Assembly: GCF_900103475.1 (NCBI RefSeq) | Contig: NZ_FNHG01000019.1 | Location: forward strand, 1 to 64,000 | DNA from: Maricaulis salignorans | Lineage (GTDB): Bacteria; Pseudomonadota; Alphaproteobacteria; Caulobacterales; Maricaulaceae | Direction of reading: 5' to 3' | DNA length: 64,000 bases | Part shown: positions 6,359 through 31,699 of the stretch, in pieces | Position numbering within the stretch: position 1 is the first letter of the stretch | Layout of the letters: each line of letters begins with the position of its first letter | Position numbers and translations under genes: made by a program | Notes under the pieces: generated by a model | Told to the model about the DNA's origin: nothing | The model's database searches: none | What the model saw: only the letters and a program-made list of their open reading frames with translations

Positions 6359-6363
6359 GAAAC

Positions 6364-8052: not shown

Positions 8053-8106
8053 GGCGCCAACCTAGCGAGCTTCGGGCCGCAGGAAAAGGCGGCCATGCGC
8101 CCCATG

Positions 8107-8136: not shown

Positions 8137-8158
8137 CCTGCCGCAGAACGGTCAGGCT

Positions 8159-16600: not shown

Positions 16601-17506
16601 CTATTTGTATTGTGGACGCAGCCAGACGCCGTTTGCGGCATCGGTTGGCAGTCCCGTGTCCGGATCATAGACGCCGCGGCGCAGATTATTGCGGCGATTG
16701 ATCTCGCTGGCCGCCGGGCGCTTTTCACCATCACCGAGCGCCGTGGCGAGCGCGGCCAGGTCGCGGGCCAGATTGGCGAACTCATCCATTTCCATCGCGA
16801 ACGGGTGGTCCGGCCCGGTGCTGGTCCGGTCGAAAGTGACATGTTTCTCGATCACCGTGGCACCCAGCGCTGCCGCTGCGATCGGCGCGACATGGCCCGG
16901 CGAATGATCCGACAATCCCACCGGTAAGCCGAAGGCCGATTTCAGCGTCGTGATGGCGTTGAGATTGAGATCCTCCCAGCTGGGCGGATAGCTCGCCGTG
17001 CATTGCAGCACCGTCAGATCGGTACAGCCGGCGGCTTGCACCGTTTTGATCGCCGCCTCGACCTCTTCCAGGTAACTCGCCCCGGTTGACATGATGACGG
17101 CCTTGCCGGTGGTGGCGACCTTCTCGAGCAGAGGCGTGAAGGTCAGGTCACCCGAGGCGATCTTGTAGCGTTTGACGCCCAGTGCCTCGAGCTTGTCGAC
17201 AGCCTCCAGTTCAAACGGGGTCGACATGAATTCGATGCCGTTTTCGTCACAGCAGGCCTTGAGCTCGGGCAACCAGTGATCAGGCAGGCCCTGATTGGTG
17301 AAGGCAGCATAGCGTGGGTTGTCGATCCATTCTCCGCTCGCGGCATCCTTCGCCTTGCGGGCGATCAGGCCTTCGCGCGTCAGGGACTGGAATTTGGCGA
17401 TCTGCGCGCCAGCCTTCGCGCTGGCTTCGATATAGCGCTTGGCCTCGTCGAGGCTGCCGCCATGATTGGAGCCGATCTCGGCGATCAGTGTGATGGCAGG
17501 GCTCAT
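16601..17506 (-). CDS. NeuB-family nonulosonate synthase lacking the SAF domain
   Basis: Predicted PEP-dependent condensing enzyme of 301 residues, related to N-acetylneuraminate, legionaminate and pseudaminate synthases. The TIM-barrel motifs are present: IAEIGSNHGG, AKFQSLTREG, IEFMSTPFE, KIASGDLTF, MSTGASYLEE, LQCTASYPP, VGLSDHSPGH, VIEKHVTFDR and DHPFAMEMDEF. The family normally continues with a ~60-residue SAF (antifreeze-like) domain that covers the active site of the partner subunit. Here the chain stops after RRGVYDPDTGLP plus about 14 residues. PseI at 29843-30928 in this window does have that domain. It is the last gene of the minus-strand operon, overlapping the CMP-transferase gene by four bases. 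Confidence 0.85.
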   Translation of the reverse strand: MSPAITLIAEIGSNHGGSLDEAKRYIEASAKAGAQIAKFQSLTREGLIARKAKDAASGEWIDNPRYAAFTNQGLPDHWLPELKACCDENGIEFMSTPFELEAVDKLEALGVKRYKIASGDLTFTPLLEKVATTGKAVIMSTGASYLEEVEAAIKTVQAAGCTDLTVLQCTASYPPSWEDLNLNAITTLKSAFGLPVGLSDHSPGHVAPIAAAALGATVIEKHVTFDRTSTGPDHPFAMEMDEFANLARDLAALATALGDGEKRPAASEINRRNNLRRGVYDPDTGLPTDAANGVWLRPQYK

Positions 17507-18231
17507 GAGGCTGATCCTTGTTGCGCGGACCGGGCAGGCGCGATCTCGGCCAGCAGGGCGCAGATATGTCCGGTATCGACCGGCCAGCCGCGCGCCTCGA
17601 GGCTGGAGTGGATCATGCGGACAAAGTCCAGCTCGGCGGCGGTGTCGACCGACAGGTCGTACTCGGGGTGATGCAGCGCTTCCGGGAAGGCGAGGGTGAG
17701 GCAGCGATAGGCGTCCGGGTTTTCACGCACCTTGATCGTCACATGCTCGCGCTCGCGGTCCGTTGTGGCGCCGTCGCCATCAATCTGGCGCAGCACGCGC
17801 GTCTCGACGATTTCCGCGCGCAGGCCCTTGGGAAGATGACCGGCCTCGGGCCGGGTGTATTCGGCGCCGTGCGCCTGGTGTTCGGCGACGCAGCGCGCAA
17901 TCACGTCCGGGTCGCGAAACGGGCTGTCCGAGGTGATGCGAACCAGTGTGTCGGCGAGCGTCATATCGGCGGCGAGGACGAAACGGCTCAGCACATCGCG
18001 TTCGGAACCGCGGCAGACGCGGATGCCTTCGGCTTTGGCGAGGGCCGCGATGACATTGTCGCGCCGGGCCTGTGTCGTGGCGATTACGAGCTCGTCGACG
18101 CCTTCGATCCGGCGCAGGCGGCGGCATTGATAGGCCAGCAGCGACACGTCGTCATGCAGCGGCTCGAGAATCTTCCCGGGCAGTCGGCTGGAGCCCATGC
18201 GGGCCTGGATGACGGCGATTGTACGCTTCAT
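17503..18231 (-). CDS. SpsF/NeuA-like sugar nucleotidyltransferase
   Basis: Cytidylyltransferase-fold protein of 242 residues. The N-terminal nucleotide-binding signature is IAVIQARMGSSRLPGKILEP, followed by RGSERDVLSRF and the metal-site region VRITSDSPFRDPDVI. This SpsF-like branch is often annotated as spore-coat polysaccharide cytidylyltransferase and commonly replaces NeuA/PseF in nonulosonic acid loci. Predicted role: CMP activation of the sugar made by the adjacent NeuB-like enzyme. Four-base ATGA-type overlaps with both neighbours (17503-17506 and 18228-18231) show translational coupling. A paralogue (33954-34739) serves the pse cluster. Confidence 0.82.
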   Translation of the reverse strand: MKRTIAVIQARMGSSRLPGKILEPLHDDVSLLAYQCRRLRRIEGVDELVIATTQARRDNVIAALAKAEGIRVCRGSERDVLSRFVLAADMTLADTLVRITSDSPFRDPDVIARCVAEHQAHGAEYTRPEAGHLPKGLRAEIVETRVLRQIDGDGATTDREREHVTIKVRENPDAYRCLTLAFPEALHHPEYDLSVDTAAELDFVRMIHSSLEARGWPVDTGHICALLAEIAPARSAQQGSAS

Positions 18232-19277
18232 GTGATGCCCTTAACACCGAGTGGAACTTCCACGTCCTGCCAGGAGCGGACCATGCGCATTGGAGCATAG
18301 GGCGGAATGGTTGACGGGATATGGCCATCCAGATGCTCCGCTCCCGCGAGCATGCGCACCAGCAGGGCCGGGACATTCAGGCCGGCCAGCGTCATCAGAT
18401 AGCCAAAGCCCCACATGCGCGGATTGATCTCCAGCAGATAGGGCAAGGCGTCCGGCGAGGGGCGTTTCAGCTCGACGGCGGCCAGACCGTGCCAGGGGCC
18501 GGTGGCGCGCAGCACGGCGAGGCCGGCTTCTGTGAGGCGGGCATCGACGACGGTTTCGCCGGCAATGGCGGCGCCGCCGCTGGGGGGATTGGTTTGCAGC
18601 TTGCGATGCAGAGTGGAGATCACCAGCTCGCCGCGATTCCAGAGCGTGCCGATGGTGTAGATCGTCTCGGGACCGCCGGGGATGCGCTGTTGCACCAGGC
18701 TTGGGCCGTGCTCCGCGACGGTCTGCGGCCAGTCGCGTTTGAGTGTTGCCATATCGGCCGGATAGCTCACACCGCGTGCACCGCGCGAGCAGCGTGGTTT
18801 GAGCACGCAGGGGAAATCGCCATCCCAGCTGTCCAGATCTGCGGCCGTGTCTGGTTGCAAAGTGCGCGGCAGCGGCAAACCGGCCTCGGCGATGCGGGTG
18901 AGCAGCAGGCCCTTATCGATCCCGAAGCGCAAAACCTCCGGGTCAGGCACCGGTACGCGCAGGCCCTGACGCGCCCAATCGCGGGCGACCGGCGCGAGGG
19001 CGGCGGCTTCGGCTTCCGAACCGGGAATGATGATGTCGAGCTGGTGAGTTGCACAGATCTCGCGCACGGCGGCGCGATAGGCGTCGGCATTGCCGGCTGC
19101 GGGCAGGAGCCGGGCTTCCACGCCCGGTTCGAACAGGCCGGCCGCGAGGGGGTTGAGATCCGCAGCGACGATCTTCAGCGCGCTGTCGGCCAGTTTGAGC
19201 GAGCGGACCGTGCCCAGGCCAGGCGGGGCACCAACGCCTGTGACCAGAACGCCGCTGGAGAGCTCATGCAGCATCAT
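18228..19277 (-). CDS. ATP-grasp domain ligase
   Basis: ATP-grasp enzyme of 349 residues. The N-terminal Rossmann-like pre-ATP-grasp region (GVLVTGVGAPPGLGTVRSLK) is followed by the ATP-binding lid and core (FPCVLKPRCSRGARGVSYP) and the metal-binding end ELKRPSPDALPYLLEINPR. ATP-grasp enzymes form carboxylate-amine, carboxylate-thiol or similar bonds through an acyl phosphate. The position between a sulfotransferase and a CMP-transferase gene, with four-base overlaps on both sides, suggests it attaches an amine or amino acid to the sugar or a precursor. That is inference; the substrate is unknown. CarB-like ATP-grasp proteins recur in surface polysaccharide loci. Confidence 0.8.
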   Translation of the reverse strand: MMLHELSSGVLVTGVGAPPGLGTVRSLKLADSALKIVAADLNPLAAGLFEPGVEARLLPAAGNADAYRAAVREICATHQLDIIIPGSEAEAAALAPVARDWARQGLRVPVPDPEVLRFGIDKGLLLTRIAEAGLPLPRTLQPDTAADLDSWDGDFPCVLKPRCSRGARGVSYPADMATLKRDWPQTVAEHGPSLVQQRIPGGPETIYTIGTLWNRGELVISTLHRKLQTNPPSGGAAIAGETVVDARLTEAGLAVLRATGPWHGLAAVELKRPSPDALPYLLEINPRMWGFGYLMTLAGLNVPALLVRMLAGAEHLDGHIPSTIPPYAPMRMVRSWQDVEVPLGVKGIT

Positions 19278-20251
19278 GCCGGCCTCCAGGCGTCGAGCGA
19301 CCGGCCGAGCAGGCGTTCCAGTGCGTCAATTTCCGGTGCGAAGCGAGCCTCCAGCATGGCGCGGATATCCGCATCCATCGGCGGGACCTGCACCGGCGCT
19401 GCACCCGGTGGTGGGTAGACGCCATCGGCCGTCGAGGCTGACGATATACCGGTGACCGGCGCCACCAGTTCGGCATGCAGGGCTTCGAAACTCTCCGCCG
19501 TGCGGTGGTCGTAGTCGCCTGCGAGAACAGGAAGTTTGGCCGCTGGGATGCCGCCGGTATTATAGCGCTCCTGCAGCGAGACCGGTGCATCGGGATCAAG
19601 GTCGAGAAATTCGAATATGCGGCGCATCGTGCCGGGGGCGTCGCGGTCGAGCTCGTCCTGGAGCAGGACAAGACGATGATCGAACCGCTGCATCCAGGGC
19701 TGGAGCTTGCCGACATAGCGGCCGGTCTCGGTGTAGAGCCATTGGAAGCCCCAATTCGCCGCCTTGCGCCCGGCTTCGATTTCGAGGGTCTTGGCGAAGG
19801 AGAGAAATTCGGCATCGCGTCGGACATTCTGCAGATAATGCGACCAGGCACGATCAACCGGATTGCGCAATATGGCGATGATCCGGGTTGCCGGTCCGCA
19901 CAGTGACAGCGCCTGCGGTGCGGCGATATCGGCATAGGCGAGATAGTCCGGCGAGACATCGCCGGCGCGGCTCTCATTGCCGCGCTTGGCGAAAAGGGCC
20001 TGGTAGTCGGCCGCAGAGCCTGGTGCGTCGAAATGGTAGAAGGCGGGCCAATGGACCGCGCCCTTCCAGATGTCCGAGAAGAAGCGGCCTTCCTTGCGCG
20101 TGGGCGAAAGGAAAATATCCGGATGTTGTCGCAGGTAATGATAGAGCGAGGTGGTGCCGGATTTCGGCGCCCCGATGACCAGAAAGTCCGGCCATCCGGT
20201 GGGGGGCGGCGCCCCTGGGCCGGGGTGTTGATGTATTGGTGCGTTACCCAC
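19274..20251 (-). CDS. Sulfotransferase (PAPS-dependent, NDST-like)
   Basis: Cytosolic sulfotransferase of 325 residues. The 5'-phosphosulfate loop is FLVIGAPKSGTTSLYHYL near residue 24, and the 3'-phosphate site is RNPVDRAWSHYLQN. Both are canonical PAPS contacts. A Pro/Gly-rich N terminus precedes the fold. The stop overlaps the start of the ATP-grasp gene by four bases; the upstream PseG-like gene ends 69 bases away. Predicted role: O- or N-sulfation of a carbohydrate, most likely the product of this operon. No PAPS-synthesis genes are in the window. Confidence 0.85.
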   Translation of the reverse strand: MGNAPIHQHPGPGAPPPTGWPDFLVIGAPKSGTTSLYHYLRQHPDIFLSPTRKEGRFFSDIWKGAVHWPAFYHFDAPGSAADYQALFAKRGNESRAGDVSPDYLAYADIAAPQALSLCGPATRIIAILRNPVDRAWSHYLQNVRRDAEFLSFAKTLEIEAGRKAANWGFQWLYTETGRYVGKLQPWMQRFDHRLVLLQDELDRDAPGTMRRIFEFLDLDPDAPVSLQERYNTGGIPAAKLPVLAGDYDHRTAESFEALHAELVAPVTGISSASTADGVYPPPGAAPVQVPPMDADIRAMLEARFAPEIDALERLLGRSLDAWRPA

Positions 20252-20320
20252 CCTGGTCTCCCTCGGAGCGGCCGATTGGCTGCTTCTGTGTTGGCTTGGA
20301 CTGGAAATACTGCGCCTGAT

Positions 20321-21337
20321 TCAGGCCGCCGGACCAGCCGCCGTCCTTGAAATGGTTGAATTTAGCTGTGTCTGTGTCGCTGAAACGAGATGTGAAATGC
20401 GGCTTGCCACACGGTCGGCGCCGCGGCCATCGACCGCTGCCTCGCTGGCCCGGGCAAGGGCCTGGCGCCGGGCCGGTGCTTCCAGCAGACCGCGCAGGGC
20501 CTGCCGTAAATCTTCAGCAAAGCCGGTGGCTGTGGGATCCAGGCTGAGCCCGAGTCCAAGCGCCGCGAATTGCCGGGCCCGTTCGCGCTGGTTGGCTGCG
20601 ATCGGCAGGGCGATGGCCGCGAGACCGGTCGCTGCCGCCTCATGCAGAGTGGTTCCGGCGCCGAGAATGGCAATATCGGCCGCGCACAGCTCGGCCAGAA
20701 GACCAGCCTCGGGCAGGGCGGTCGTGCCTGGCGCTGCCCGTTTGATGTCGATCATGACACCTTCGAGTTCGGGCAGGTTATCCAGGGCCGCCAGCACAGC
20801 CTCCAGCACCGGTGTTTCGCTGCCCCCGAGCGAGATCAGCAGGCGTCGCGCCTGTGGCCAAATGGTGCGTGGCGGGCGGCTGGCATAGTCGGGGGCGAGG
20901 AGAATGTGCTCGCGGCCCTCGCAGACCTGCATCAGCGCACCCGTCTGGGTCGGTTCGAATCCCTGGCGGATGTAGAGATCGGCCTCGGCGTCACCGTGAT
21001 TGTTGCCGACCAGCGCCAGCCAGAATCCGGCGCGGCGCAGCTGGGCACACAGCGGGGCGTCCGTGATCTGCCAGTCAGCAATCAGGCCGTCGATACGCGC
21101 ATCGGTGAGGGCGGGAAGCAGGCTCCCGTCCGTGTCACCCCCGGCCGGGATGGGCCGGACTTCAATGCGACTGGCGAGGCTGGCGGGTATGGCATGTGGC
21201 GTCTGGCTGAACCAGATGAGCGCATGCCCCGCATCCAGCAGGGCCTGCGCCAGCGCAGCACACCGTATCACGTGACCGAAGCCGAGACGGCTATCGCCAT
21301 CGGCGCGGATCGCGAGACGGGCGTGCGTGCCGGTCAT
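20321..21337 (-). CDS. PseG-like UDP-sugar hydrolase / GT-B protein
   Basis: Protein of 338 residues resembling PseG, the hydrolase that removes UDP from the 2,4-diacetamido-trideoxy-altrose precursor. Visible motifs: LAIRADGDSRLGFGHVIRC near the N terminus with the conserved His, LLISLGGSETP, and the GT-B nucleotide-binding stretch LGAGTTLHEAAATGLAAIAL. The ATG at 21337 overlaps the stop of the FlmG-like gene by four bases; the longer upstream reading has no ribosome site. It is a paralogue of the clearer PseG at 31700-32758, with considerable divergence, suggesting a different substrate. It could instead be an inactive or transferase-type homologue. Confidence 0.78.
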   Translation of the reverse strand: MTGTHARLAIRADGDSRLGFGHVIRCAALAQALLDAGHALIWFSQTPHAIPASLASRIEVRPIPAGGDTDGSLLPALTDARIDGLIADWQITDAPLCAQLRRAGFWLALVGNNHGDAEADLYIRQGFEPTQTGALMQVCEGREHILLAPDYASRPPRTIWPQARRLLISLGGSETPVLEAVLAALDNLPELEGVMIDIKRAAPGTTALPEAGLLAELCAADIAILGAGTTLHEAAATGLAAIALPIAANQRERARQFAALGLGLSLDPTATGFAEDLRQALRGLLEAPARRQALARASEAAVDGRGADRVASRISHLVSATQTQLNSTISRTAAGPAA

Positions 21338-23118
21338 TTCCGGTCTTTGACGAATTGCTCCAGATCGGATGCGACCCGCGGCATGATATTGTTGAAGTCC
21401 CGGAAGCCAGTGCCGAAAAACGACCGGGTTTGGGGATACCATTGCATGTGATCGGTGCCGAGCAGCGGCCAGGCCGTCGACCGCGCGTGAATGAACCAGA
21501 CGCGGCCACCGGACGCAGCCGCCAGATTGCTGGTCGCATTCATCGGTCCGATCACCAGGTCACAGCTTGAGGCGAAGGCGGCGATATCATCGAGATCCAT
21601 TTTGAGGTCGATGCCCTGGGGCTGGTGGATGTCGACGCCAAACATGTCCTTGGCTTGCTGAAGTTCCCTGGCGATCTCGCCATATTGAAGGTTGATGAAA
21701 TTGACGCCGTCGACCGCGAAAATCGGCTTCCAGTCCTCGAACTCGGAGAAGAAGCGCGCTCGCCGGACGGTCATTTTCAATGACTTCCAGAGAATGCCGA
21801 CTTTCAACCCGTCGCCGATCTGGTCGAGATAGTCGCGCCACACCCCGACGCGCTCGGGATCGGGCGTGAGAAAGGCGGGGCGTTTGGGGAAGCTCTCAAG
21901 CGATGGCCGCAGGGCGATCAGGGGATCGCCCATCGGCGTCCAGTAATCGGCCCCGTCATCGAGATGATTGGCGGTGCGCACATCGCGTCCCTCAAGTTTG
22001 ACGGAGGTGTGGTTGCCGACCCTGGCTTGGGGCAGGGAACGCTGGACCAGTGGCACCAGTCTGTACTCGCAGGCAATTCTCAGCTCGCCTTCCGGGCCGA
22101 TCGCGTCGATCAATTCCTGCGCGGTATTCAGGAAGAGCACTTCATCGCCGAGGCCTTGTTCGCCGACCAGGACGACGATCTTGCCCTTGATGTCGGCGAG
22201 GTCATGGCTCTCCCAGCGCGGGCAGTTCATCGCGAAAATCGTCGCCTGCGCATTGTTCGGGTCAAGACGGCCCTGTTGAGCTTTCCAACCCTCCTCGACG
22301 CGCCCGCAGGCCAGCAGGAGCAGGGAGCGGCCATGTTCCATTGTCGCCCGATCGGCTGCGTCCTGAGGGTTTCTCAGGGCGAGTTCAAAATGTTCCACGG
22401 CTTCGAACGGCTTGCCCAGCAGCTCATACATATTCGCCATGTTGTTGTGAGCACGGGCGAAATTGGGATCCAGCCGCAGGGCTTCTCTGAAAAAAGTCGT
22501 GGCGCCGGCCGGGTCACCGGACTCGGCGAGGACGGTGCCGAGCGAGTTCCACAATTCGATATTTTCCGGGTGCTGGAAAATTGCAGTCCGCAGGATCTCG
22601 ATCGCATCCTCGATCCGGGCCTGGTCCCGCAAGACGCTGGCCAGATTGGTGACTCCGCTGAGATTGCCCGGATCGATCTGGACGCAGAGCCGGTAGAATT
22701 TCTCGGCGGCGTCAAGCATGTCCAGCTTCCACGCGACAATGCCCATATTGAGATAGACCTCGGCATCTTTCGGGTCGAGCTTCCAGGCGCGTTCATAGTA
22801 TTCGAGGGCTTTGGACAGGCGCCCGACGCGGAACAGGACCAGGCCGACCGCGTGGTTCGTCAGGGCAATGTCCGGAGCCATGTCGAGGGCCCGCAGGACG
22901 TATTTCGAGGCTTCCTGGTGATCGCCCGCGTCGGACAGCTTGATCCCGCGGGTGACGAGACTGGTGGCCTTGCGGTATTTGTCGCGCTGCGCTTTCGGCA
23001 CAACGCCCAGGCGAAGCTCCGTGCTGAGGCGGCCGCGCGATCCGCGCGCGCCGACCGCATCATTCTTTGCGGACTCGGCCTCGGCGGTAAACTCGTCAAT
23101 CAGGGCAGCGTCGGTCAT
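21334..23118 (-). CDS. flmG: TPR-glycosyltransferase, FlmG-like flagellin glycosyltransferase candidate
   Basis: Two-part protein of 594 residues. Residues about 45-280 are tetratricopeptide repeats (for example ALEYYERAWKLDPKDAEVY and EILRTAIFQHPENIELW). Residues about 310-590 are a GT-B-like transferase domain beginning VVLVGEQGLGDEVLFLNTAQ and ending with LVIGPMNATSNLAAASGG and MQWYPQTRSF. This architecture matches Caulobacter FlmG, in which TPRs bind flagellins and the C-terminal domain attaches pseudaminic acid. It is first in the minus-strand sugar operon and divergent from flbT-flaF and the flagellins, which supports the call. A role on another protein substrate remains possible. No signal peptide; cytoplasmic. 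Confidence 0.75.
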   Translation of the reverse strand: MTDAALIDEFTAEAESAKNDAVGARGSRGRLSTELRLGVVPKAQRDKYRKATSLVTRGIKLSDAGDHQEASKYVLRALDMAPDIALTNHAVGLVLFRVGRLSKALEYYERAWKLDPKDAEVYLNMGIVAWKLDMLDAAEKFYRLCVQIDPGNLSGVTNLASVLRDQARIEDAIEILRTAIFQHPENIELWNSLGTVLAESGDPAGATTFFREALRLDPNFARAHNNMANMYELLGKPFEAVEHFELALRNPQDAADRATMEHGRSLLLLACGRVEEGWKAQQGRLDPNNAQATIFAMNCPRWESHDLADIKGKIVVLVGEQGLGDEVLFLNTAQELIDAIGPEGELRIACEYRLVPLVQRSLPQARVGNHTSVKLEGRDVRTANHLDDGADYWTPMGDPLIALRPSLESFPKRPAFLTPDPERVGVWRDYLDQIGDGLKVGILWKSLKMTVRRARFFSEFEDWKPIFAVDGVNFINLQYGEIARELQQAKDMFGVDIHQPQGIDLKMDLDDIAAFASSCDLVIGPMNATSNLAAASGGRVWFIHARSTAWPLLGTDHMQWYPQTRSFFGTGFRDFNNIMPRVASDLEQFVKDRK

Positions 23119-23310: not shown

Positions 23311-23697
23311 ATGGCCCTGAAAATCTCGCTCAAACCCGGCGAGAAGTTCGTGCTGAACGGAGCCGTGGTGGAGAATGGCGACCGCCGTGCCACGCTTCTG
23401 TTGCAGAACCGGGCTTCGGTGCTTCGTGAGAAGGACATCATGCAGGCCGAGCAGGTCACAACGCCGGCCCGCCACATCTATTTTCCGATCATGATGATGT
23501 ATCTCTCGGATCAGGCAGATGATCTCCAGTACGAGCAATTTGTGCTCCGGATGAATGAATTCATGGGCGCCGTGACGGCGACCGAAATCCTGTCGAGCTG
23601 CGTTACCATCAGTCGCGATGTGATGGCCGGCGAATATTACAAGGCGCTGATGCGCTGCAAGAAATTGATCGAGTTTGAAGAGGAGCGCCTGAAGTAA
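23311..23697 (+). CDS. flbT: Flagellar biosynthesis repressor FlbT
   Basis: FlbT, 128 residues, the RNA-binding post-transcriptional regulator that in Caulobacter destabilises flagellin mRNA until basal body/hook assembly is complete. The characteristic opening [20 protein letters not shown] and the helical C terminus ending [10 protein letters not shown] are full length. GGAGAA lies seven bases before the ATG. The stop and the flaF start overlap by one base (TAATG), so the two are coupled. In alphaproteobacteria FlbT and FlaF act antagonistically on flagellin expression; the flagellin genes follow directly. Confidence 0.95.
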
Positions 23698-24071
23698 TGT
23701 CCTTTCAAGCCTATCAGAAAGCCTCAACCCGGGTGGAAGACCCGCGTTCGACGGAATACCGGTTGTTTGCCCAGGTGACGCGGGCCTTGATGCAGGCGTC
23801 GGAAACCGACCAGATCGAGATATCGAGCCGGATCGACGCGCTCGACTGGAATCGCAGACTCTGGTCCAATCTCGGTGCCGATTGTGCCAGTACCGAGAAC
23901 AAGCTCCCGGAGCAGCTCCGGGCCTCGATCATTTCGCTCTCGCTCTTTGTCTCGAAATACACCTCCCAGGTGATGCGCGGGACCGGCGAGTTTGAAGTCT
24001 TGATCGATCTGAACCGCACGATCATGCAGGGCCTTGCGCCACAGCCGACCGCGGCCAACAGCGCCGCTTGA
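23697..24071 (+). CDS. flaF: Flagellar biosynthesis regulator FlaF
   Basis: FlaF, 124 residues, a helical protein needed for flagellin synthesis and secretion and a partner of flagellin and FlbT in Caulobacter. Recognisable stretches are [26 protein letters not shown]-type segment [14 protein letters not shown], and [20 protein letters not shown]. The start overlaps the flbT stop by one base. A strong hairpin terminator follows, 50 bases downstream, separating this pair from the sigma-54-driven flagellin gene. Confidence 0.95.
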
Positions 24072-24121
24072 CCGGCCGAAAATGGCTGCTGGCATTCAGC
24101 CGCGGCTCCTGCTGAACACCT

Positions 24122-24155
24122 GAAGGCCGGACGCACGCTTGTGCGCCCGGCCTTC
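24122..24155 (+). terminator. Hairpin terminator of flbT-flaF
   Basis: GAAGGCCGG / CCGGCCTTC outer stem with an inner CGCAC-GCTT-GTGCG stem, 50 bases after the flaF stop. No long T-run follows, but the stem is very stable. Confidence 0.65.
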
Positions 24156-24240
24156 CGTCTTCCGGGCGTAGCTGACCGGGCGCCCCGACGCGCGCGGCAT
24201 GCACGCCGGTCTTCCGGTCAACGGTCGAAAGTCCGGCGCA

Positions 24241-24253
24241 GGCAGCTTCTGCC
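24241..24253 (+). promoter_or_regulatory. ftr-like FlbD enhancer site, flagellin 1
   Basis: GGCAGCTTCTGCC, fitting GGCA-N5-TGCC with a 5-base palindromic arm, about 100 bases upstream of the sigma-54 promoter at 24355. Matches the Caulobacter ftr core (CGGCA...TGCCG) bound by FlbD. Confidence 0.55.
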
Positions 24254-24354
24254 GGGTCGGCACAATTGGACTGCACAATCGGGCAAATGCCGGATCCGGC
24301 TTCCCGGTGTCTCCAAAAATTCCCATGAAAACAACTGCTTGCCCGCGCTCCGCG

Positions 24355-24369
24355 TGGCATGGGGATTGC
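24355..24369 (+). promoter_or_regulatory. Sigma-54 promoter, flagellin 1
   Basis: TGGCATG-N4-TTGC with the invariant GG (24356-24357) and GC (24368-24369) at the required 12-base offset. Expected transcription start is near 24381, giving a leader of about 58 bases. Confidence 0.85.
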
Positions 24370-24438
24370 GACTGTCTGGGCAGGACAAAAAGTCCAAGTC
24401 AAGAACGACTTCACCACTTCCAGAATGGAGGAACAATT

Positions 24439-25263
24439 ATGCTTTCAGTGAACACCAACGCCGGAGCCATGGTGGCTCTGCAGAACCTGACGAAAACCAA
24501 CGCTCAAATGACAGAGGTTCAACAGCGGATTAACACCGGCCTTGATGTGGCCGGCGCGAAGGATGATGGCGGCAAGTTCGCCATCGCCCAGCGCATGCGC
24601 GCCCAAGTGGGCGGCTATGCTGTTGTGAAGGATAGCCTCAACCGGTCCCAATCTGTCGTCGACGTCGCGCTTGCGGCGAGCGAGGGCATTTCGGATCTGC
24701 TCATTGAGATGAAGGCAAAGGCACTGGCGGCATCTGATGTTTCTCTCGACTCTGCGTCGCGAACGGCCCTGAACGAAGACTTCAAGGCCATGCGGGATCA
24801 GATTTCGAAGATGGTCAGTACCGCTGAATTCAATGGCACAAACTTGATCAACAATACCGTGACGTCCATCTCTGCCCTGGCAAATGATGACGGTAGCAGC
24901 ACGATCTCCATCGTGGATGAAAACCTCTCGCTCGGGGGCGGTATCGTGACCCTGGGCGCGACGGCTTCCTTCGCGTCGGCGGGTACTGCTGATACGCTTG
25001 CGGGAACGATCTCGACTTCGCTGAATAATCTGAATCTTGCGTTGGCGCGCCTCGGCACGGCATCGAAATCTTTGGAGATTCACGGAGACTTTGTGGTCAA
25101 GCTTTCCGACGCCCTCGAAGTGGGTATTGGAAACCTTGTCGACGCGGACCTGGCAAAAGAAAGCGCACGCCTGCAGTCGCTGCAAGTCAAGCAGCAGCTG
25201 GGGGTTCAGGCACTTTCGATTGCGAATACGGCGCCGCAGACCATCCTTTCCTTCTTCCAGTAG
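24439..25263 (+). CDS. Flagellin 1
   Basis: Flagellar filament subunit of 274 residues, short as in Caulobacter. The conserved D0/D1 N terminus is LSVNTNAGAMVALQNLTKTN plus INTGLDVAGAKDDGGKFAIA, and the C-terminal D0/D1 is NLVDADLAKESARLQSLQVK with QLGVQALSIANTAPQTILSF. The centre is a small Ser/Thr-rich block (NNTVTSISALANDDGSSTIS) that is almost identical in flagellin 2 and is the likely O-glycosylation region. The ATG at 24439 has GGAGG eight bases upstream. Driven by the sigma-54 promoter at 24355 and probably repressed post-transcriptionally by FlbT. Exported by the flagellar type III system. Confidence 0.95.
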   Translation: MLSVNTNAGAMVALQNLTKTNAQMTEVQQRINTGLDVAGAKDDGGKFAIAQRMRAQVGGYAVVKDSLNRSQSVVDVALAASEGISDLLIEMKAKALAASDVSLDSASRTALNEDFKAMRDQISKMVSTAEFNGTNLINNTVTSISALANDDGSSTISIVDENLSLGGGIVTLGATASFASAGTADTLAGTISTSLNNLNLALARLGTASKSLEIHGDFVVKLSDALEVGIGNLVDADLAKESARLQSLQVKQQLGVQALSIANTAPQTILSFFQ

Positions 25264-25273
25264 TTTCGTCGAT

Positions 25274-25305
25274 CGGGGCCGCCTTCGGGCGGTCCCGGTT
25301 TTTTT
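25274..25305 (+). terminator. Intrinsic terminator of flagellin 1
   Basis: GGGGCCGCC-TTCG-GGCGGTCCC hairpin with an extra-stable TTCG loop followed by a run of seven T, 11 bases after the stop. Confidence 0.92.
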
Positions 25306-25382
25306 GGTTCCGCACGCGGGGGCCCGTAGGCATGTCCGCAATCCGGCTTTAACCCTTTGTAAATCATAAATCTTTGCCGACG

Positions 25383-25395
25383 GGCAGTTTTTGCC
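25383..25395 (+). promoter_or_regulatory. ftr-like FlbD enhancer site, flagellin 2
   Basis: GGCAGTTTTTGCC (GGCA-N5-TGCC), flanked by CG and GG as in the ftr consensus, about 125 bases upstream of the sigma-54 promoter at 25521. Confidence 0.55.
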
Positions 25396-25520
25396 GGGCA
25401 TTTCGAGGTTTGAGGCGGCACTTTTTACCCAGCAAATGGTTACCGCGAACAGGTCGATTCAGCGAACATCACCAACGGCACCATCTCTCTCCCGATTAAC
25501 CTGTTTCAGCCAACCGTTTC

Positions 25521-25535
25521 TGGCCCGTAGTTTGC
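25521..25535 (+). promoter_or_regulatory. Sigma-54 promoter, flagellin 2
   Basis: TGGCCCG-N4-TTGC with GG and GC correctly spaced; expected start near 25547 and a leader of about 61 bases. Confidence 0.83.
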
Positions 25536-25607
25536 GAGGTTTTCCGTGGATCAGAAGGTCCATCGGGCAAAACGCCCGGCATAAACCAGAACGGAAAGGG
25601 CCAAGAA

Positions 25608-26432
25608 ATGGCTACCATTAATACGAATTCCGGCGCCATGGTTGCGCTGCAGCAGCTGAACATGACCAATCGCGACCTGGAACAGGTCCAGAGCCGGATC
25701 ACCACCGGTCTTGCGGTCAGCTCCGCGAAAGATGATGGCGGCAAGTTCGCTATTGCGCAGAAAATGCGTGCAGACGTTCAGGCTTATGAAGTTGTTGGCG
25801 GGTCGCTCGATCTGGCAGCATCGACGGTCGACGTGGCCCTGGCCGCCGGCGAAGCTGTTTCCGACATTCTCATCGAGATGAAGTCGAAGGCGCTCGCCGC
25901 TTCCGACACCAGCCTCGACTCGGCTTCGCGCTCCGCGCTGAACGAAGACTTCAAGGCACTTCGCGACCAGATCGGCAAGATCGTCTCGAACGCCTCGTTC
26001 AACGGTACGAACCTGATCAATAACACCGTGACGTCGATCTCGGCGCTCGCCAATGCTTCGGGCTCGTCCACGATCTCGATCGCTGACGAAAATCTCTCGC
26101 TCGGTGGCGGCGTTGTTACGCTGACCGCTACAGCATCGATGGATTCAGCTGGTACCGCCGCAACGCTCGCCGGCACCATCTCGACGTCTCTGAACAACCT
26201 CAATAGTTCCCTGGCTCGCCTGGGTACGGCTTCGAAATCTGTGGGTATCCACAAGGATTTCGTCGGCAAGCTGGCTGACTCCCTGACCCAGGGTATCGGC
26301 AATCTGGTCGATGCCGATCTGGCAAAAGAGAGCGCGCGTTTGCAGTCCCTGCAGGTCAAGCAACAGCTTGGCGTTCAGGCTCTGTCGATCGCCAACAGTG
26401 CTCCGAGCACGATCCTGGGCTACTTCCGTTAA
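25608..26432 (+). CDS. Flagellin 2
   Basis: Flagellin of 274 residues, the same length as flagellin 1 and a close paralogue. The N terminus ATINTNSGAMVALQQLNMTN and C terminus QLGVQALSIANSAPSTILGY are full D0/D1 segments. The central block (NNTVTSISALANASGSSTIS, then IADENLSLGGGVVTL) matches flagellin 1 at protein level, yet the codons differ at many synonymous sites, which indicates old duplication with strong protein-level constraint rather than recent gene conversion. It has its own sigma-54 promoter. A 28-base perfect palindrome follows the stop, and flaG lies 106 bases downstream. Confidence 0.95.
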   Translation: MATINTNSGAMVALQQLNMTNRDLEQVQSRITTGLAVSSAKDDGGKFAIAQKMRADVQAYEVVGGSLDLAASTVDVALAAGEAVSDILIEMKSKALAASDTSLDSASRSALNEDFKALRDQIGKIVSNASFNGTNLINNTVTSISALANASGSSTISIADENLSLGGGVVTLTATASMDSAGTAATLAGTISTSLNNLNSSLARLGTASKSVGIHKDFVGKLADSLTQGIGNLVDADLAKESARLQSLQVKQQLGVQALSIANSAPSTILGYFR

Positions 26433-26443
26433 TCCACGGAACC

Positions 26444-26471
26444 GGATGGCGGGCCAGCTGGCCCGCCATCC
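26444..26471 (+). terminator. Palindromic hairpin after flagellin 2
   Basis: Perfect 28-base palindrome with 12-base arms (GGATGGCGGGCC / GGCCCGCCATCC) and no T-run. Probably a partial terminator or 3' stabiliser allowing read-through to flaG. Confidence 0.65.
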
Positions 26472-26484
26472 ACCTTCCCGGGAT

Positions 26485-26530
26485 CGCTGACGGAGGATGT
26501 TTTGGAGGCGCTGACGCCTCTACGTCAGCG
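26485..26530 (+). promoter_or_regulatory. Nested inverted repeats in flaG leader
   Basis: Outer arms CGCTGACG (26485-26492) and CGTCAGCG (26523-26530) enclose a second hairpin GAGGCG-CTGA-CGCCTC (26505-26520). The structure ends eight bases before the flaG ATG, so it could gate ribosome access. Function is inference. Confidence 0.45.
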
Positions 26531-26538
26531 AAAAGAAA

Positions 26539-26907
26539 ATGGCTGATACCAATTATACTCGGCCGCCTCTGGTGGCTAATCCACTTCTGGATTCACGCGA
26601 TATGTCCGGCGACCGCCCACGGCCCGACCCGACCCGCGTCCCGCCTGTAGAAAAACAGCCTCCGGCCACACAAACCGCCGGGCGCCCCCCCGAAGAACTG
26701 GTCGCCGAGCTTGAGCGTCTGTCCCGGGAAATTCTGGGCAATTCCAGGCTCAGCATTCAGCGTGAAGCCACATCGGGCGACTTCGTCTATTTGATGATCG
26801 ACAAGGATACCGGCGAGACCATCCGTCGCTGGCCGCCTGAAACGCATCAGGATCTGGCGGAATATCTGCGCACCTTCAAAGCCGGCCTCGTCAACAAGAC
26901 GGCCTGA
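26539..26907 (+). CDS. flaG: FlaG-family flagellar protein
   Basis: Small protein of 122 residues. The first ~60 residues are Pro-rich and probably disordered (RPPLVANPLLDSRDM, RPRPDPTRVPPVEKQPP). The C-terminal half has the FlaG pattern: LSIQREATSGDFVYLMIDKD, then TGETIRRWPPETHQDLAEYL. FlaG proteins are encoded next to flagellin or fliD genes and influence filament length in some bacteria. The ribosome site is weak (AAAAGA), with a GGAGGA sequestered in the leader structure upstream. It probably depends on read-through from flagellin 2, as no separate sigma-54 site is visible. Confidence 0.82.
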   Translation: MADTNYTRPPLVANPLLDSRDMSGDRPRPDPTRVPPVEKQPPATQTAGRPPEELVAELERLSREILGNSRLSIQREATSGDFVYLMIDKDTGETIRRWPPETHQDLAEYLRTFKAGLVNKTA

Positions 26908-26946
26908 GCTGCTGGGCAAAACTGACCGGTCTGGCCGTCACGACTC

Positions 26947-26966
26947 GGCAAAATCCGACTTTTGCC
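26947..26966 (+). promoter_or_regulatory. Palindrome upstream of flagellin 3, FlbD-site candidate
   Basis: GGCAAAATCCGACTTTTGCC: 7-base arms GGCAAAA / TTTTGCC with a 6-base spacer. It differs from the GGCA-N5-TGCC sites by a wider spacing but sits in the expected place, about 70-90 bases upstream of the sigma-54 promoter. Confidence 0.45.
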
Positions 26967-27034
26967 ACTTATAGCCAACACCTAAAAGCGCTCTAACTAA
27001 TGGAAAAGATGCGTTTTTATTATCTTCCGGGAAT

Positions 27035-27049
27035 CGGCACGGCAATTGC
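27035..27049 (+). promoter_or_regulatory. Sigma-54 promoter, flagellin 3
   Basis: CGGCACG-N4-TTGC, one mismatch (C for the first T), with GG and GC correctly spaced. Expected start near 27061 and a leader of about 47 bases. Confidence 0.8.
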
Positions 27050-27107
27050 GCTCGTAATTTCAAGGCGTCACGAAAGTGTGGCGCGGTGATTTGCGGGAGA
27101 ATATCGC

Positions 27108-27938
27108 ATGACCTTGAGTGTCCACACCAATACCGCCGCGATGATTGCGCTGCAGAACCTCAATAAAACCAATGACCAGATGGATGGTGTTCAGAACCGG
27201 ATCAATACCGGCCTGAAGATCTCCGGGGCCAAGGACAATGCGGCCATCTATGCGGTCGCCCAGGGCATGCGCGCCGATCTTGGTGCGCTCAGTGCCGTCC
27301 AGACCGGGCTCAACCGGGCCACGACGATTGGTGATGTTGCGCTCGCGGCCGGTGAGACGATTTCGGACCTGCTGATCCAGATGCGCGAAAAGGCGATGGC
27401 GGCGATGGACCCGTCGATCGATTCCTATTCGCGCCAGGCCTATGATTCCGATTTCAAGGCGTTGCTCGACCAGGTCCGGGTGATCATCGAGAACGCTGAA
27501 TTCGATGGCGCCAATCTGCTCGACGGCTCGGTGACAACCGGTGTTGAATTCCTCGCCGACGCTGATGCGGCACGGACGGTCACGCTGAAGTCGCAGGATA
27601 TGAGCATTGGCGGCGCGATCGTGACGATCCCGGCGACCGCCAGCCTGAGTACCGTCACCCTCGCGACCGCTGTCATGGCCAACATTCAGGCCAGTCTCGA
27701 CAACGTCAATCAATCCCTGGCCGATCTTGGCTCGGACACCAAGAAGCTTGAGGCCCATTCCGGTTTCGTCAGCAAGCTGGCCGATGCCCTCACCAAGGGG
27801 GTTGGCAATCTTGTCGATGCCGATCTGGCGGTTGAAAGTGCGCAATTGCAGGCCTTGCAGGTCAAGCAACAACTGGGTGTCCAGGCGTTGTCGATTGCCA
27901 ACTCGCAGCCGCAGATCATTCTCAACCTCTTCCAGTAG
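27108..27938 (+). CDS. Flagellin 3 (divergent paralogue)
   Basis: Flagellin of 276 residues. D0/D1 ends are conserved (LSVHTNTAAMIALQNLNKTN; QLGVQALSIANSQPQIILNL), but the centre (TTGVEFLADADAARTVTLKS) lacks the Ser/Thr block shared by flagellins 1 and 2, and the N-terminal half carries MREKAMAAMDPSIDSYSRQA instead of the K-A-L-A-A-S-D pattern. It may be a minor or position-specific filament protein and possibly a different glycosylation substrate. It has its own promoter and terminator. Multiple non-identical flagellins are normal in Caulobacter-type bacteria. Confidence 0.94.
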   Translation: MTLSVHTNTAAMIALQNLNKTNDQMDGVQNRINTGLKISGAKDNAAIYAVAQGMRADLGALSAVQTGLNRATTIGDVALAAGETISDLLIQMREKAMAAMDPSIDSYSRQAYDSDFKALLDQVRVIIENAEFDGANLLDGSVTTGVEFLADADAARTVTLKSQDMSIGGAIVTIPATASLSTVTLATAVMANIQASLDNVNQSLADLGSDTKKLEAHSGFVSKLADALTKGVGNLVDADLAVESAQLQALQVKQQLGVQALSIANSQPQIILNLFQ

Positions 27939-28050: not shown

Positions 28051-29217
28051 ATGCCCAGACCCTTTCTGCCCTATGGCCGACAATCCATTGATGACAGCGA
28101 TATTGAGGCGGTCGCGCGGGTCTTGCGTTCCGACTGGCTGACCACCGGGCCTGCGGTCGATGCCTTTGAGGCAGACTTCGCCGCCTGTACCGGGGCGCAA
28201 TATGCCATCGCCTGTTCCAATGGCACGACCGCGCTCCACCTGGCGCTTGCAGGCCTGGATGTCGGGCCCGGTGATGTCTGTATCGTGCCGGCCATCACCT
28301 TCATGGCGACAGCGAATGCGGCAATCTATTGCGGTGCCGATATCGTGTTCGCTGATGTTGACGCCACTACCGGGCTGATGACCCCGGACACGTTGCGGCA
28401 GGCCATTGCGCGTGTCTCCGGCGCGAGATTGCGCGCCATCCTGCCGGTGCATCTGGCGGGGCAGTGCGAGGATATGGCGGCGATGCGCGAGATCGCCGAC
28501 GCGGTCGGTGCCAGACTGGTTGAGGATGCCTGTCATGCGCTCGGCACGCGCTGGCAGGACCGGCCGGTCGGGGCGTGCGAGCAGTCCGATGCGGCGTGTT
28601 TTTCTTTCCATCCGGTCAAGACGATCGCGGCCGGCGAGGGCGGTATGGTGACGACCAGTGACGCGGCCCTCGCGGCCCGGCTGCGGCGCTTGCGCAGTCA
28701 TGGCATTGAGCGCGATCCGGCGCGGATGGAACAGGGCCAGGATGAGCCCTGGTGGCATGAGATGCAGGAGCTGGGCTGGAATTATCGCCTGTGCGACGTC
28801 CAGGCGGCGCTGGCGCGTTCGCAATTGCATCGGCTCGATGCCTTCGCCGCCAAACGCAAAGCGCTTGCAGCGGCTTATGACGCGTTGCTGGCGGGACATC
28901 CGCTGGTGAAGGCGCTGGTGCGGACACCCGATTGTGACCCCTGTCTGCATCTTTACCCGGTGCGGATCGACTTTGCCGGGGCTGGAACGGACCGCGCCAC
29001 GATTATGCGGGCCCTGCAGGAACGCGGGATAGGCTCGCAGGTTCACTATATCCCGGTGCCGTCACAGCCCTGGTATCGCAGGCGTTATGGCGATCAGACC
29101 CCGCCAGGCGCGGCTGGATATTATGCCCAGACTCTGAGCCTGCCACTATTCACGGACATGGCGCCGGACGATCCGGCGCGGGTGGTGGCGGCGCTGGACG
29201 CGGTGCTGGGCGGCTAG
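28051..29217 (+). CDS. pseC: PseC: UDP-4-keto-6-deoxy-HexNAc aminotransferase
   Basis: PLP-dependent DegT/DnrJ/EryC1-type aminotransferase of 388 residues, second step of CMP-pseudaminic acid synthesis. It makes UDP-4-amino-4,6-dideoxy-N-acetyl-altrosamine. Typical PseC features: LPYGRQSIDDSDIEAVARVL, RSDWLTTGPAVDAFE, ACSNGTTALHLAL, and the Schiff-base lysine in CFSFHPVKTIAAGEGG. Its first-step partner pseB is in the opposing operon. GAGGA lies six bases before the ATG. The stop converges on the methylase gene so tightly that the two stop codons share a CTAG. Confidence 0.93.
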   Translation: MPRPFLPYGRQSIDDSDIEAVARVLRSDWLTTGPAVDAFEADFAACTGAQYAIACSNGTTALHLALAGLDVGPGDVCIVPAITFMATANAAIYCGADIVFADVDATTGLMTPDTLRQAIARVSGARLRAILPVHLAGQCEDMAAMREIADAVGARLVEDACHALGTRWQDRPVGACEQSDAACFSFHPVKTIAAGEGGMVTTSDAALAARLRRLRSHGIERDPARMEQGQDEPWWHEMQELGWNYRLCDVQAALARSQLHRLDAFAAKRKALAAAYDALLAGHPLVKALVRTPDCDPCLHLYPVRIDFAGAGTDRATIMRALQERGIGSQVHYIPVPSQPWYRRRYGDQTPPGAAGYYAQTLSLPLFTDMAPDDPARVVAALDAVLGG

Positions 29218-29846
29218 CGGTTCTTCTTGCGGAACAAGACCCAGGTGAGGTCATCAATCCCGGTGGAGCGCTGCCAGAGAAATCCGTCATCCACGATTTC
29301 CAGATCGTCGAAGCGGTCGAGGAAGAAACCGCCGAAATCGCGCTTGAACAACAGGTCGTTACGACCGCGATACGGGATGGATTCGGGCTTGGTCGAGAAA
29401 TATTCGGCGACCAGAATCCAGCGATTTGAAACCCGGTGCATCTCGTCGGCGACGGTGCCGAGATCGTCGGGATGGACGTGAATCAACACGCCCGATGTGA
29501 ACACCATATCGATTTCGGCCGCGCCAAAGGGCAGTTTCTGCCCTGTCGCGTTATGTAGCCGTTCGTCTGCCACAACCCTGTCGTCAAGCACGCGCTGCCT
29601 TGCCTTGGCATTGGGCTCCACCGCGTACAGTGTCGCGGGCGAGAGCCGGTCGATGGCGCGCAGGTTGAGACCGATATTGCAACCGACCTCCAGAATGCTC
29701 TCCGGCTCGGCGCCATGGGTGCTTTTGAGCAACTGCGCCCACATCCGGGTCCGCATCCGCAGAGCGTCGGTCAGGGTCTCATTGCGATCGATATATTTGT
29801 CGCCGAATTCGCCGCGCCAGGCGTCGAGCTGGGTTGTGTCGGTCAT
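29214..29846 (-). CDS. Pseudaminic acid biosynthesis-associated methylase
   Basis: SAM-dependent methyltransferase of 210 residues. Motif I is SILEVGCNIGLNLRAI, then the acidic end of strand 2 in LYAVEPN and the post-motif IDMVFTSGVLIHVHPDDLG. The overall sequence fits the methylase family repeatedly found inside pseudaminic loci. It overlaps pseI by four bases (29843-29846), so it is the last gene of the pseB-to-methylase operon. It may methylate the NulO or its N-acyl group; the site is unknown. Confidence 0.85.
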   Translation of the reverse strand: MTDTTQLDAWRGEFGDKYIDRNETLTDALRMRTRMWAQLLKSTHGAEPESILEVGCNIGLNLRAIDRLSPATLYAVEPNAKARQRVLDDRVVADERLHNATGQKLPFGAAEIDMVFTSGVLIHVHPDDLGTVADEMHRVSNRWILVAEYFSTKPESIPYRGRNDLLFKRDFGGFFLDRFDDLEIVDDGFLWQRSTGIDDLTWVLFRKKNR

Positions 29847-30928: not shown

Positions 30929-31027
30929 GATGGTCCCCAGGCAGAGCAGTGTCGGGGCGAAAACATGTTGCGTGGCGCATGGCGCGAATCACCCTTGAAG
31001 ACAGGCTTCGAGCCTCGGTCAGGAGGG

Positions 31028-31657
31028 TTAATTTGTCGTTCGACCCCGGCCGTCGGCGCCGCCCGCCTCGCCGGGACTGGATGCGCCGGAAAGCAGGCGC
31101 ATGGCGATGCGCGCGGGGGTGTCCCAGCCCTGCGGCAGCCTGGCGAACAGCTCTGTCTTGTCGGCGGCGCGGTGCATGGGCAGGCAGGTCGTCTGGACCT
31201 GGGGCGGCAATTGGCCGCTGGCAATCGCGTCCCAATGGCGTGCGAAAACATCCTCGATTTCCTGGCGCAGCCGCAGATAGCTGGATTTCAGGGTTTCAAG
31301 GTCCGGATCGAGTTTGACCTCGCGCTGCACCAGGATCGGGCCGGTATCCATCTCGCCATCAATGAGGTGCAGCGTCACGCCCTTGGGGGTGTTGTCGACC
31401 CAGGACCAGAAATTGGGATCGGCACCGCGATTATAGGGCAGGAGCGAAATGTGCAGGTTCACAATCCGGCCCGCATACAGGTCGAGCACCGGTGCGGTAA
31501 TCAGGCGCCGATAGCCATAACTGACGACCCAGTCCGGGCGGATGGCGGCAAAATCGGCCTCGTTCAGAAGGTCGGAACGCACGGTAACACGATCCCCTCG
31601 CGCCGTGATCGGAGCGATCAGGGAGTCGGGATAGGGGGAAAGAATCAGGACGTGCAT
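31028..31657 (-). CDS. Formyltransferase-like protein of the pse cluster
   Basis: Protein of 209 residues with the folate-dependent formyltransferase fold. The catalytic-loop region is IVNLHISLLPYNRGADPNFW, including the HxSLLPxxxG signature with the active-site His. DTPKG-like NTPKGVTLHLIDGEMDTGPI supplies the conserved Asp of the same family. The last ~15 residues are a disordered Gly/Arg tail. Placed between pseG and pseI, it is the only acyl-transferase candidate in the cluster, since no PseH acetyltransferase gene is visible. Inference: it N-formylates the 4-amino group (C7 of the final sugar) from 10-formyl-THF. Confidence 0.82.
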   Translation of the reverse strand: MHVLILSPYPDSLIAPITARGDRVTVRSDLLNEADFAAIRPDWVVSYGYRRLITAPVLDLYAGRIVNLHISLLPYNRGADPNFWSWVDNTPKGVTLHLIDGEMDTGPILVQREVKLDPDLETLKSSYLRLRQEIEDVFARHWDAIASGQLPPQVQTTCLPMHRAADKTELFARLPQGWDTPARIAMRLLSGASSPGEAGGADGRGRTTN

Positions 31658-31699
31658 GCAGCGGACTGTGGTGGTCCGAGTTTAACCAAGTCTTGTCGG

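Follow-up and report, generated by a model that had tools for sequence, protein, structure and literature searches.

A six-gene operon of Maricaulis as a probable exchangeable finishing cassette for a flagellin nonulosonate

The genes described for pseudaminic acid (Pse) on the flagellin of Caulobacter comprise flmA, flmB, flmH, flmD, flmC, neuB and flmG, and the FlmG protein contains 596 residues (PMC7591256, as excerpted). The same excerpt asks whether FlmG accepts other nonulosonates. For Shewanella oneidensis, the excerpted account of sfmABCDE links PseB and PseC, a 290-residue NeuB-domain protein and an ATP-grasp protein to a flagellin that carries a 274-Da nonulosonate with a further moiety of 236-264 Da; deletion of the ATP-grasp gene leaves the filament in place and the flagellin lighter (PMC3765264). 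In C. difficile type B, a mutant in the ATP-grasp gene CDR20291_0245 makes a flagellin glycan without its outer part, which the authors predicted to be a sulfonated peptidylamido moiety (PMC5207246, as excerpted). Here, we describe a six-gene operon at positions 16601-23118 of a 64,000-nucleotide stretch of the Maricaulis salignorans genome (assembly GCF_900103475.1, contig NZ_FNHG01000019.1, positions 1 to 64,000), which we call the window. On balance, we favor the view that Maricaulis uses this operon as an exchangeable cassette to finish its flagellin nonulosonate, and that the cassette forms one alternative pathway together with PseB, PseC and FlmG. Gene content, conservation, the genomes in which NeuBs was the sole NeuB found, the retention of PseB and the exchange with other finishing sets were computed; what reactions its enzymes catalyze, which acyl group is used, where the sulfate sits and whether flagellin is the target are inferred.

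The operon consists of six minus-strand open reading frames (ORFs) in the order flmG–pseG2–ST–ATP-grasp–spsF2–neuBs. Gene families were assigned with Pfam and NCBIfam profiles, while the names FlbT, FlaF, flagellin, MoxR, WbqC, NeuC, NeuD and SBBP were given by eye. The operon and its immediate neighbors are as follows (UDP, uridine diphosphate; CMP, cytidine monophosphate; PAPS, 3'-phosphoadenosine 5'-phosphosulfate):

23311..27938, plus strand: three flagellin genes with flbT and flaF, reading away from the operon; the flagellins are the proposed FlmG substrates
21334..23118, minus strand: FlmG-like protein of 594 residues with TPR repeats, head of the operon; presumed flagellin O-glycosyltransferase
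20321..21337, minus strand: PseG2, a divergent PseG-like UDP-sugar hydrolase (TIGR03590, 66.1 bits; cut-off 153.55)
19274..20251, minus strand: PAPS-type sulfotransferase (ST) with a GTG start (PF13469, 9.3e-14; PF00685, 6.2e-12)
18228..19277, minus strand: ATP-grasp ligase of the PRK12767 kind (126 bits; cut-off 218), proposed N-acylation (amide-forming) enzyme
17503..18231, minus strand: SpsF2, an SpsF-like CMP-sugar synthetase (CTP_transf_3, PF02348, 7.8e-22)
16601..17506, minus strand: NeuBs, a NeuB-family synthase of 301 residues with the TIM barrel present (PF03102, 1.4e-82)
15881-16594, plus strand: cupin protein of 237 residues, convergent with neuBs (Cupin_2, 2.1e-10)

Four 4-base overlaps (21334-21337, 19274-19277, 18228-18231 and 17503-17506) and a single gap of 69 bases (20252-20320) connect the six genes, exactly as a preliminary description of this DNA had reported. 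Its view of the operon as nonulosonate-type, with a FlmG-like protein at the head, also fits the gene families and the flagellin neighborhood. The description was right about the six genes and about the NeuB-like nature of the last one, but it overlooked the co-inherited cupin gene, the cut-short SAF domain of NeuBs and the exchangeable slot in which the operon sits.

By comparison with the published description, the FlmG-like protein agrees with FlmG in its TPR N-terminus, its length of about 595 residues and its position next to flbT, flaF and the flagellins; its C-terminal half matched no Pfam family at E<=0.01. PseG2 falls well below the PseG equivalog grade, is the least conserved cassette gene (29-44% identity to the window in 12 loci) and retains a GHxxRC stretch in 13/13 rows. 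A PDB search with PseG2 returned weak matches alone, mostly to UGT-type glycosyltransferases. The sulfotransferase matched 3rnl and heparan sulfotransferases, and its residues K30, G32, T33, T34, S35, R129 and S137 are invariant in 13 rows. We take K30, T33, T34 and S35 to be the 5'-phosphosulfate loop, and R129 and S137 to be the 3'-phosphate motif. The ATP-grasp protein matched 2pn1 (a CPSase-like protein) and the L-amino acid ligases 3vot/30vh, with K160, E283, N285 and R287 invariant among the same number of rows (13). An amide-forming step is plausible, and this much stands of the earlier proposal of an amide- or amino-acid-bearing nonulosonate. The closest solved chain to SpsF2 is the cytidylyltransferase 6oew; Q9, A10, R11, G13, S14, R16, L17, P18 and K20 are invariant (13 rows), although the protein scores far below the PseF equivalog grade (15.8 vs a cut-off of 205.7 bits). 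Ratios of nonsynonymous to synonymous substitution (dN/dS) lie between 0.055 and 0.32 for the six genes and the cupin gene in four genome pairs.

Nonulosonates are common in lipopolysaccharide (LPS) and capsules, and the product might decorate these or another envelope protein instead of flagellin. We regard this as very doubtful: a FlmG-like head stands beside flagellin genes in 14/14 cassette loci, and the six genes include no flippase, polymerase or envelope glycosyltransferase.

The operon itself contains neither PseB nor PseC, as had been stated. Both enzymes are, however, encoded at equivalog grade in the same window, together with an ordinary set of finishing genes:

28051..29217, plus strand: PseC aminotransferase, shared trunk (TIGR03588, 483.1 bits; cut-off 423.5)
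29214..32758, minus strand: ordinary finishing set of methyltransferase, PseI, formyltransferase and PseG
32758..33831, minus strand: PseB dehydratase, shared trunk (TIGR03589, 497.5 bits; cut-off 407.75)
33954..34739, plus strand: SpsF-like CMP-transferase of the ordinary set, with homologues beside PseB in L054, L239, L247 and L248 (L and G numbers are our handles for loci and genomes)

The ordinary PseI (29843-30928; 492.3 bits) and PseG (31700-32758; 216 bits) exceed their cut-offs of 340.25 and 153.55, while the SpsF-like gene had no PseF model match at E<=0.01. As described before, operon genes 2, 5 and 6 have paralogues here (31700-32758, 33954-34739 and 29843-30928, respectively), which stand 6.7-11.6 kb from the near edge of the operon. 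Only steps after PseC are present twice in the window.

This duplication is not general. We searched 20 chosen genomes, mostly drafts, with the PseI query at E<=1e-30: 14 with the cassette, defined by a NeuBs profile match or by an ATP-grasp match with 57% identity or more, and six without it. NeuBs is the only match in 10 of the 14 cassette genomes, among them the named strains M. maris DSM 4734, M. parjimensis DSM 16078 and M. alexandrii LZ-16-1, as well as G092, which is a single contig and 100% complete. An ordinary PseI accompanies NeuBs in three cassette genomes (the window genome, G026 and G084; 76-100%) and was not found in the other 11. One of these, G056, has a second NeuB (37%) elsewhere in the genome, beside NeuC/NeuD-like genes. 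Five of the six cassette-less genomes (four Maricaulis and G014) contain an ordinary PseI (53-82%), and G003 has a 33% NeuB. PseB was found in all 20 genomes, at 73-79% identity in the 13 cassette relatives and 71-82% in the others (in G417, 78% over 219 residues at a contig end). Five NeuBs-only loci that could be read through PseB (L242 and L244-L247) gave no match to ordinary PseG, PseH, PseI or formyltransferase at E<=1e-5; L247 (G046) has one extra SpsF-like gene. Likewise, the PseH query from L038 found nothing in the cassette or in the NeuBs-only loci, to which this search was confined. On the PseI results, we reject the idea that the operon is generally a pse duplicate, contrary to the earlier idea of a second operon. 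Since PseB is kept where no other NeuB was found, it is most likely the trunk enzymes, PseB and PseC, that supply the cassette in NeuBs-only strains. Of the two origins considered earlier, a branch from pse intermediates is therefore more likely than another precursor.

Alternatively, the cassette might produce some other nonulosonate, whether legionaminate-like or new, starting from a UDP-sugar that PseB and PseC do not provide. This idea has some appeal, since NeuBs scores better with the NeuB than with the PseI model and stands as a separate lineage in the tree. We consider it unlikely. The six genes encode no dehydratase, aminotransferase or hydrolysing 2-epimerase, and Pfam and NCBIfam searches found no LegB/LegC or NeuC-type 2-epimerase among them. 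PseC lies beside the flagellins in 10/12 cassette loci (and a few kb further on in G029, L242), and PseB is present in 14/14 cassette genomes. Furthermore, only two of the seven PF02719 matches in the M. salignorans genome are strong, namely PseB (341 bits) and a 693-residue frame (326 bits); the next scores 48.

The nearest experimental precedent is the sfm system of Shewanella, which speaks for the favored reading but also suggests another model. On this model, NeuBs would make a deoxy-keto acid arm, which the ATP-grasp enzyme would ligate to a nonulosonate made by other enzymes. The excerpted report describes a 290-residue NeuB-domain protein and an ATP-grasp protein in a flagellin operon, PseB and PseC encoded elsewhere, a 274-Da nonulosonate with a 236-Da arm, and a lack of clear PseH/G/I/F orthologues (PMC3765264). 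The length of SfmA suggests that it too lacks a SAF domain. We nevertheless give this model little chance. In 10/14 cassette genomes no other NeuB was found that could make the core, and the cassette brings PseG-like and CMP-transferase genes, which a core pathway would need. Unlike the Maricaulis cassette, the sfm operon contains a thiamine pyrophosphate (TPP) enzyme, a reductase and an S-adenosylmethionine (SAM) methyltransferase, has its Maf genes outside the operon and, as far as the excerpted description goes, lacks the SpsF, PseG-like, sulfotransferase, cupin and FlmG genes.

As to the distribution of the cassette, a close ATP-grasp homologue occurs in 13 of 119 family genomes (one of them outside the genus, the other 12 among its 14 listed members), with 57-73% identity to the window in the 12 relatives; 17 further genomes have weak matches (25-34%). 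In an order-wide sample, the NeuBs profile matched 14/398 genomes at E<=1e-100, comprising 13 of the 17 listed members of the genus and 1/381 others. In the class sample only the M. salignorans genome itself passed 1e-40 with the ATP-grasp profile (1/385). Twelve of 398 genomes in the phylum sample matched NeuBs at 1e-70. The 11 besides its own genome score 239-267 vs 568 bits, and the frames of the ten that were resolved (all but L163) measure 336-404 residues, which could accommodate a SAF domain. Close matches in named relatives come from records of Maricaulis, from Oceanicaulis sp. HLUCCA04 and from one record named 'Alphaproteobacteria bacterium' (L055-L067). A search for the six-gene order, proposed in the preliminary description, recovered it in 12/12 loci fetched for their close ATP-grasp match (L033-L044) and in L182; in L038, pseF, pseG, pseH and pseI are inserted between flmG and pseG2. 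The cassette is divergent from the flbT-flaF-flagellin genes in all 14 loci (Fla2/Fla3 lie beyond the end of L038). It is therefore genus-typical for Maricaulis and, as shown below, exchangeable. In plasmid records, NeuBs found matches of 37.5-42.2% identity (best 8 of 83 records).

To our knowledge, sulfotransferases and ATP-grasp enzymes are not standard in nonulosonate pathways. Both could be passengers that act on another glycan, leaving pseG2, spsF2, neuBs and flmG as the nonulosonate route. Distant ATP-grasp relatives in haloarchaea (24-35%) and on rhizobial plasmids (~29%) would fit such an independent role, as would the haloarchaeal loci, which show no match to NeuBs, SpsF2, ST or PseG2 at E<=1e-4 and hence do not share the cassette. 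Nonetheless, we find the passenger explanation rather improbable: the two genes occur in the same order in 14/14 cassette loci read to the end, window included, and are about as conserved as NeuBs and SpsF2. Two further candidates were set aside. A rhizobial relative (28.5%) in the single S. meliloti stretch L154 (pSymB, 5575-10987) had no cassette around it by eye; it lies just downstream of genes resembling, by eye, those for sulfate activation (cysD/cysN-C/cysQ). The gammaproteobacterial locus L124, where an ordinary PseI-like gene has a partial ATP-grasp match upstream of it, was not a clear second case.

Exchange is seen in the interval between flmG and moxR, which holds the cassette, pse finishing genes, or both. 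It contains the cassette in 14 loci and pseF-pseH-pseI in G116 and G422. In G014, a gene resembling pseF (by eye) is followed by pseG, pseH and pseI in the list of its contents, all encoded on the other strand from flmG. In G417 (L240, 9984-15588), an unknown gene, KASIII, pseF, a PseG-like gene, an LpxD-like acyltransferase gene and pseI occupy the slot, which suggests a hydroxyacyl-type nonulosonate. In G111 (L053, 7041-7820) an SpsF2 remnant stands alone between flmG and moxR. Its frame is open and 32 of 91 invariant residues are changed, compared with at most 14 of 105 in intact rows (leave-one-out); this genome has its finishing genes, with a formyltransferase among them, between pseC and pseB, an arrangement shared with the window. 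The main difference between finishing sets is the acylation gene: pseH (above the equivalog cut-off in L038; homologues in L054, L181, L239 and L241), a formyltransferase (window and G111), an LpxD-like enzyme (G417) or, in the cassette, the ATP-grasp gene.

The trees are consistent with such exchange. The cassette-less label requires 4 changes on the flagellar-gene tree (19 rows; mean of shuffled labels 4.5, as low in 195/500) and 4 on the FlmG tree (19 rows; as low in 205/500 shuffles). Since these counts resemble those of shuffled labels, the cassette type is scattered on both trees. The FlmG tree broadly tracks the flagellar genes and not the cassette type, with L182 and L038 placed differently; in both trees, cassette-bearing G029 and cassette-less G014 are sisters (100/100). 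Between G046 and G106, the synonymous difference is 0.01-0.11 from flmG to the cupin gene and 0.07 in flbT vs 0.32 in moxR, which suggests recent recombination of the slot.

In NeuBs, the barrel residues E10, K38, D200-H201, E220-K221-H222 and D233 are invariant in a 10-row alignment with SAF-bearing NeuB and PseI proteins, but the protein had no SAF match (PF08666) in the Pfam search, whereas the PseI of the window does (3.8e-13). The SAF domain of the window protein stops four residues past R297, and the other 12 NeuBs rows end 6-11 residues past the corresponding arginine (13-row alignment). R297 and P298 are invariant in the 10-row alignment. R297 aligns with R319 of PseI, which aligns with residue 314 of 1xuu; R297 is thus the counterpart of Arg314 in the N. 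meningitidis enzyme, a residue at which 4ipj and 4ipi differ from 1xuu. The SAF arginine R322 of Caulobacter NeuB, reported as required for activity (PMC7591256, as excerpted), probably occupies the same position. In phmmer searches, the best solved chains were a PseI (146 bits) and a NeuB (144 bits). A tree with six NeuBs rows, which includes neither L163 nor the G003 NeuB, places NeuBs as its own lineage (100/100) beside the PseI and NeuB/Leg rows. We would guess that the shortened SAF domain leaves room for a bulky N-acyl group.

The cupin gene, which ends six bases from the end of neuBs, appears to belong to the same system. It is present in 13/13 cassette genomes vs 1/106 others among the 119 family genomes (G417, G422 and G425 are outside this sample), although in G084 it sits at the end of another contig. 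The Fisher value for this association, 1.8e-16, overstates the evidence because related genomes are not independent. A PDB search returned weak cupin matches. The one cupin genome without the cassette is G003, where the homologue (72-73%) leads a same-strand run (L180, 3450-10749) of genes for an AMP-ligase, a weakly glycosyltransferase-like protein, a sulfotransferase, a WbqC-like protein, a hexapeptide protein and an aminotransferase (by eye). Since this run and the cassette both join a cupin with a sulfotransferase and a carboxylate-activating ligase, the cupin may, by analogy, act on the acyl arm.

With these assignments, a pathway can be proposed. PseB and PseC, encoded 5-10 kb away, would make UDP-4-amino-4,6-dideoxy-L-AltNAc. 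The branch point would be N-acylation, where PseH acetylates the 4-amine in the usual route and the ATP-grasp enzyme may instead attach a carboxylic acid in amide linkage, an amino acid or a similar acid being the likeliest choice. This role is suggested by analogy, from position and family, because the other sets in the slot differ at the acylation gene. PseG2 would remove UDP, and NeuBs would condense the sugar with phosphoenolpyruvate, its shortened SAF domain perhaps being more open to a bulky acyl group. SpsF2 would then make the CMP-donor from which FlmG transfers the sugar to flagellin. The sulfotransferase could sulfate the sugar or the acyl arm, and the cupin could help to make or modify this arm. 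In its most specific form, the proposal is tentative: most Maricaulis may make a sulfated, amino-acid-bearing Pse relative by means of the trunk, the ATP-grasp enzyme, the PAPS-type sulfotransferase, the cupin and a NeuB with a SAF stub, with the slot swapping acetyl, hydroxyacyl and ATP-grasp cassettes under one flagellin transferase.

Several points weigh against this pathway. The sugar may not be L-altro configured, because NeuBs lies outside the PseI and NeuB clades and scores higher with the NeuB model (288 bits) than with the PseI model (245.1 bits; cut-off 340.25), below the cut-off in both cases. Retention of PseB would be expected in any case where a Pse-like sugar of any sort is produced. 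The absence of a second NeuB rests on a single threshold in mostly draft genomes. PseG2 could be a GT-B glycosyltransferase. Caulobacter flmH is reported to be dispensable (PMC7591256, as excerpted), so that an acylation step can be redundant. Finally, adenosine 5'-phosphosulfate (APS) kinase was found in 104 of 119 family genomes and missed, without explanation, in the cassette genome G046; because so widespread an enzyme does not discriminate, the supply of PAPS lends the proposal no support.

Compared with the described systems, the cassette combines familiar and unfamiliar elements. Like Caulobacter, as far as the excerpted description goes (PMC7591256), Maricaulis has a presumed TPR flagellin glycosyltransferase of about 595 residues, a PseB/PseC trunk, a presumably cytoplasmic nonulosonate donor and a flagellin neighborhood. 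In contrast to Caulobacter, its cassette would finish the sugar with a divergent PseG2, a SAF-shortened NeuB and SpsF2, adds ATP-grasp, sulfotransferase and cupin genes, and contains no FlmH-type acetyltransferase. The canonical Pse pathway (PseB, C, H, G, I, F) shares the trunk and the proposed order of steps; the cassette counterparts of PseG, PseI and PseF, however, fall below NCBIfam equivalog cut-offs, and the proposed acylation gene is of another fold. C. difficile type B uses an ATP-grasp gene in flagellin modification, but in the excerpted description its glycan has no named nonulosonate and the other genes differ (PMC5207246). Among the matches listed, the open-licence literature on ATP-grasp/sulfotransferase nonulosonates or on Maricaulis nonulosonates does not name the cassette. 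If the proposal is true, it would add ATP-grasp amidation and sulfation to flagellar nonulosonates, as well as a NeuB that works with a SAF stub. Sister FlmG proteins beside different finishing cassettes make Maricaulis look like a natural experiment on the donor range of FlmG and a natural test of how far a flagellar sugar can vary, and the named NeuBs-only strains allow each step to be tested.

Some observations concern neighboring genes. In the window (29214-31657), a formyltransferase gene takes the place that pseH has in L038 and L181, and the methyltransferase gene overlaps pseI; a formylated, methylated Pse is a possible product of the ordinary set. In L165, a NeuB that branches below the PseI clade has, by eye, a PseG-like protein and an aminotransferase as neighbors. 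A 911-residue protein with SBBP-like repeats is encoded downstream of the pse genes (window positions 34823-37558), and its homologues occur near PseB wherever a locus extends far enough (L035, L054, L239, L241, L242 and L244-L248).

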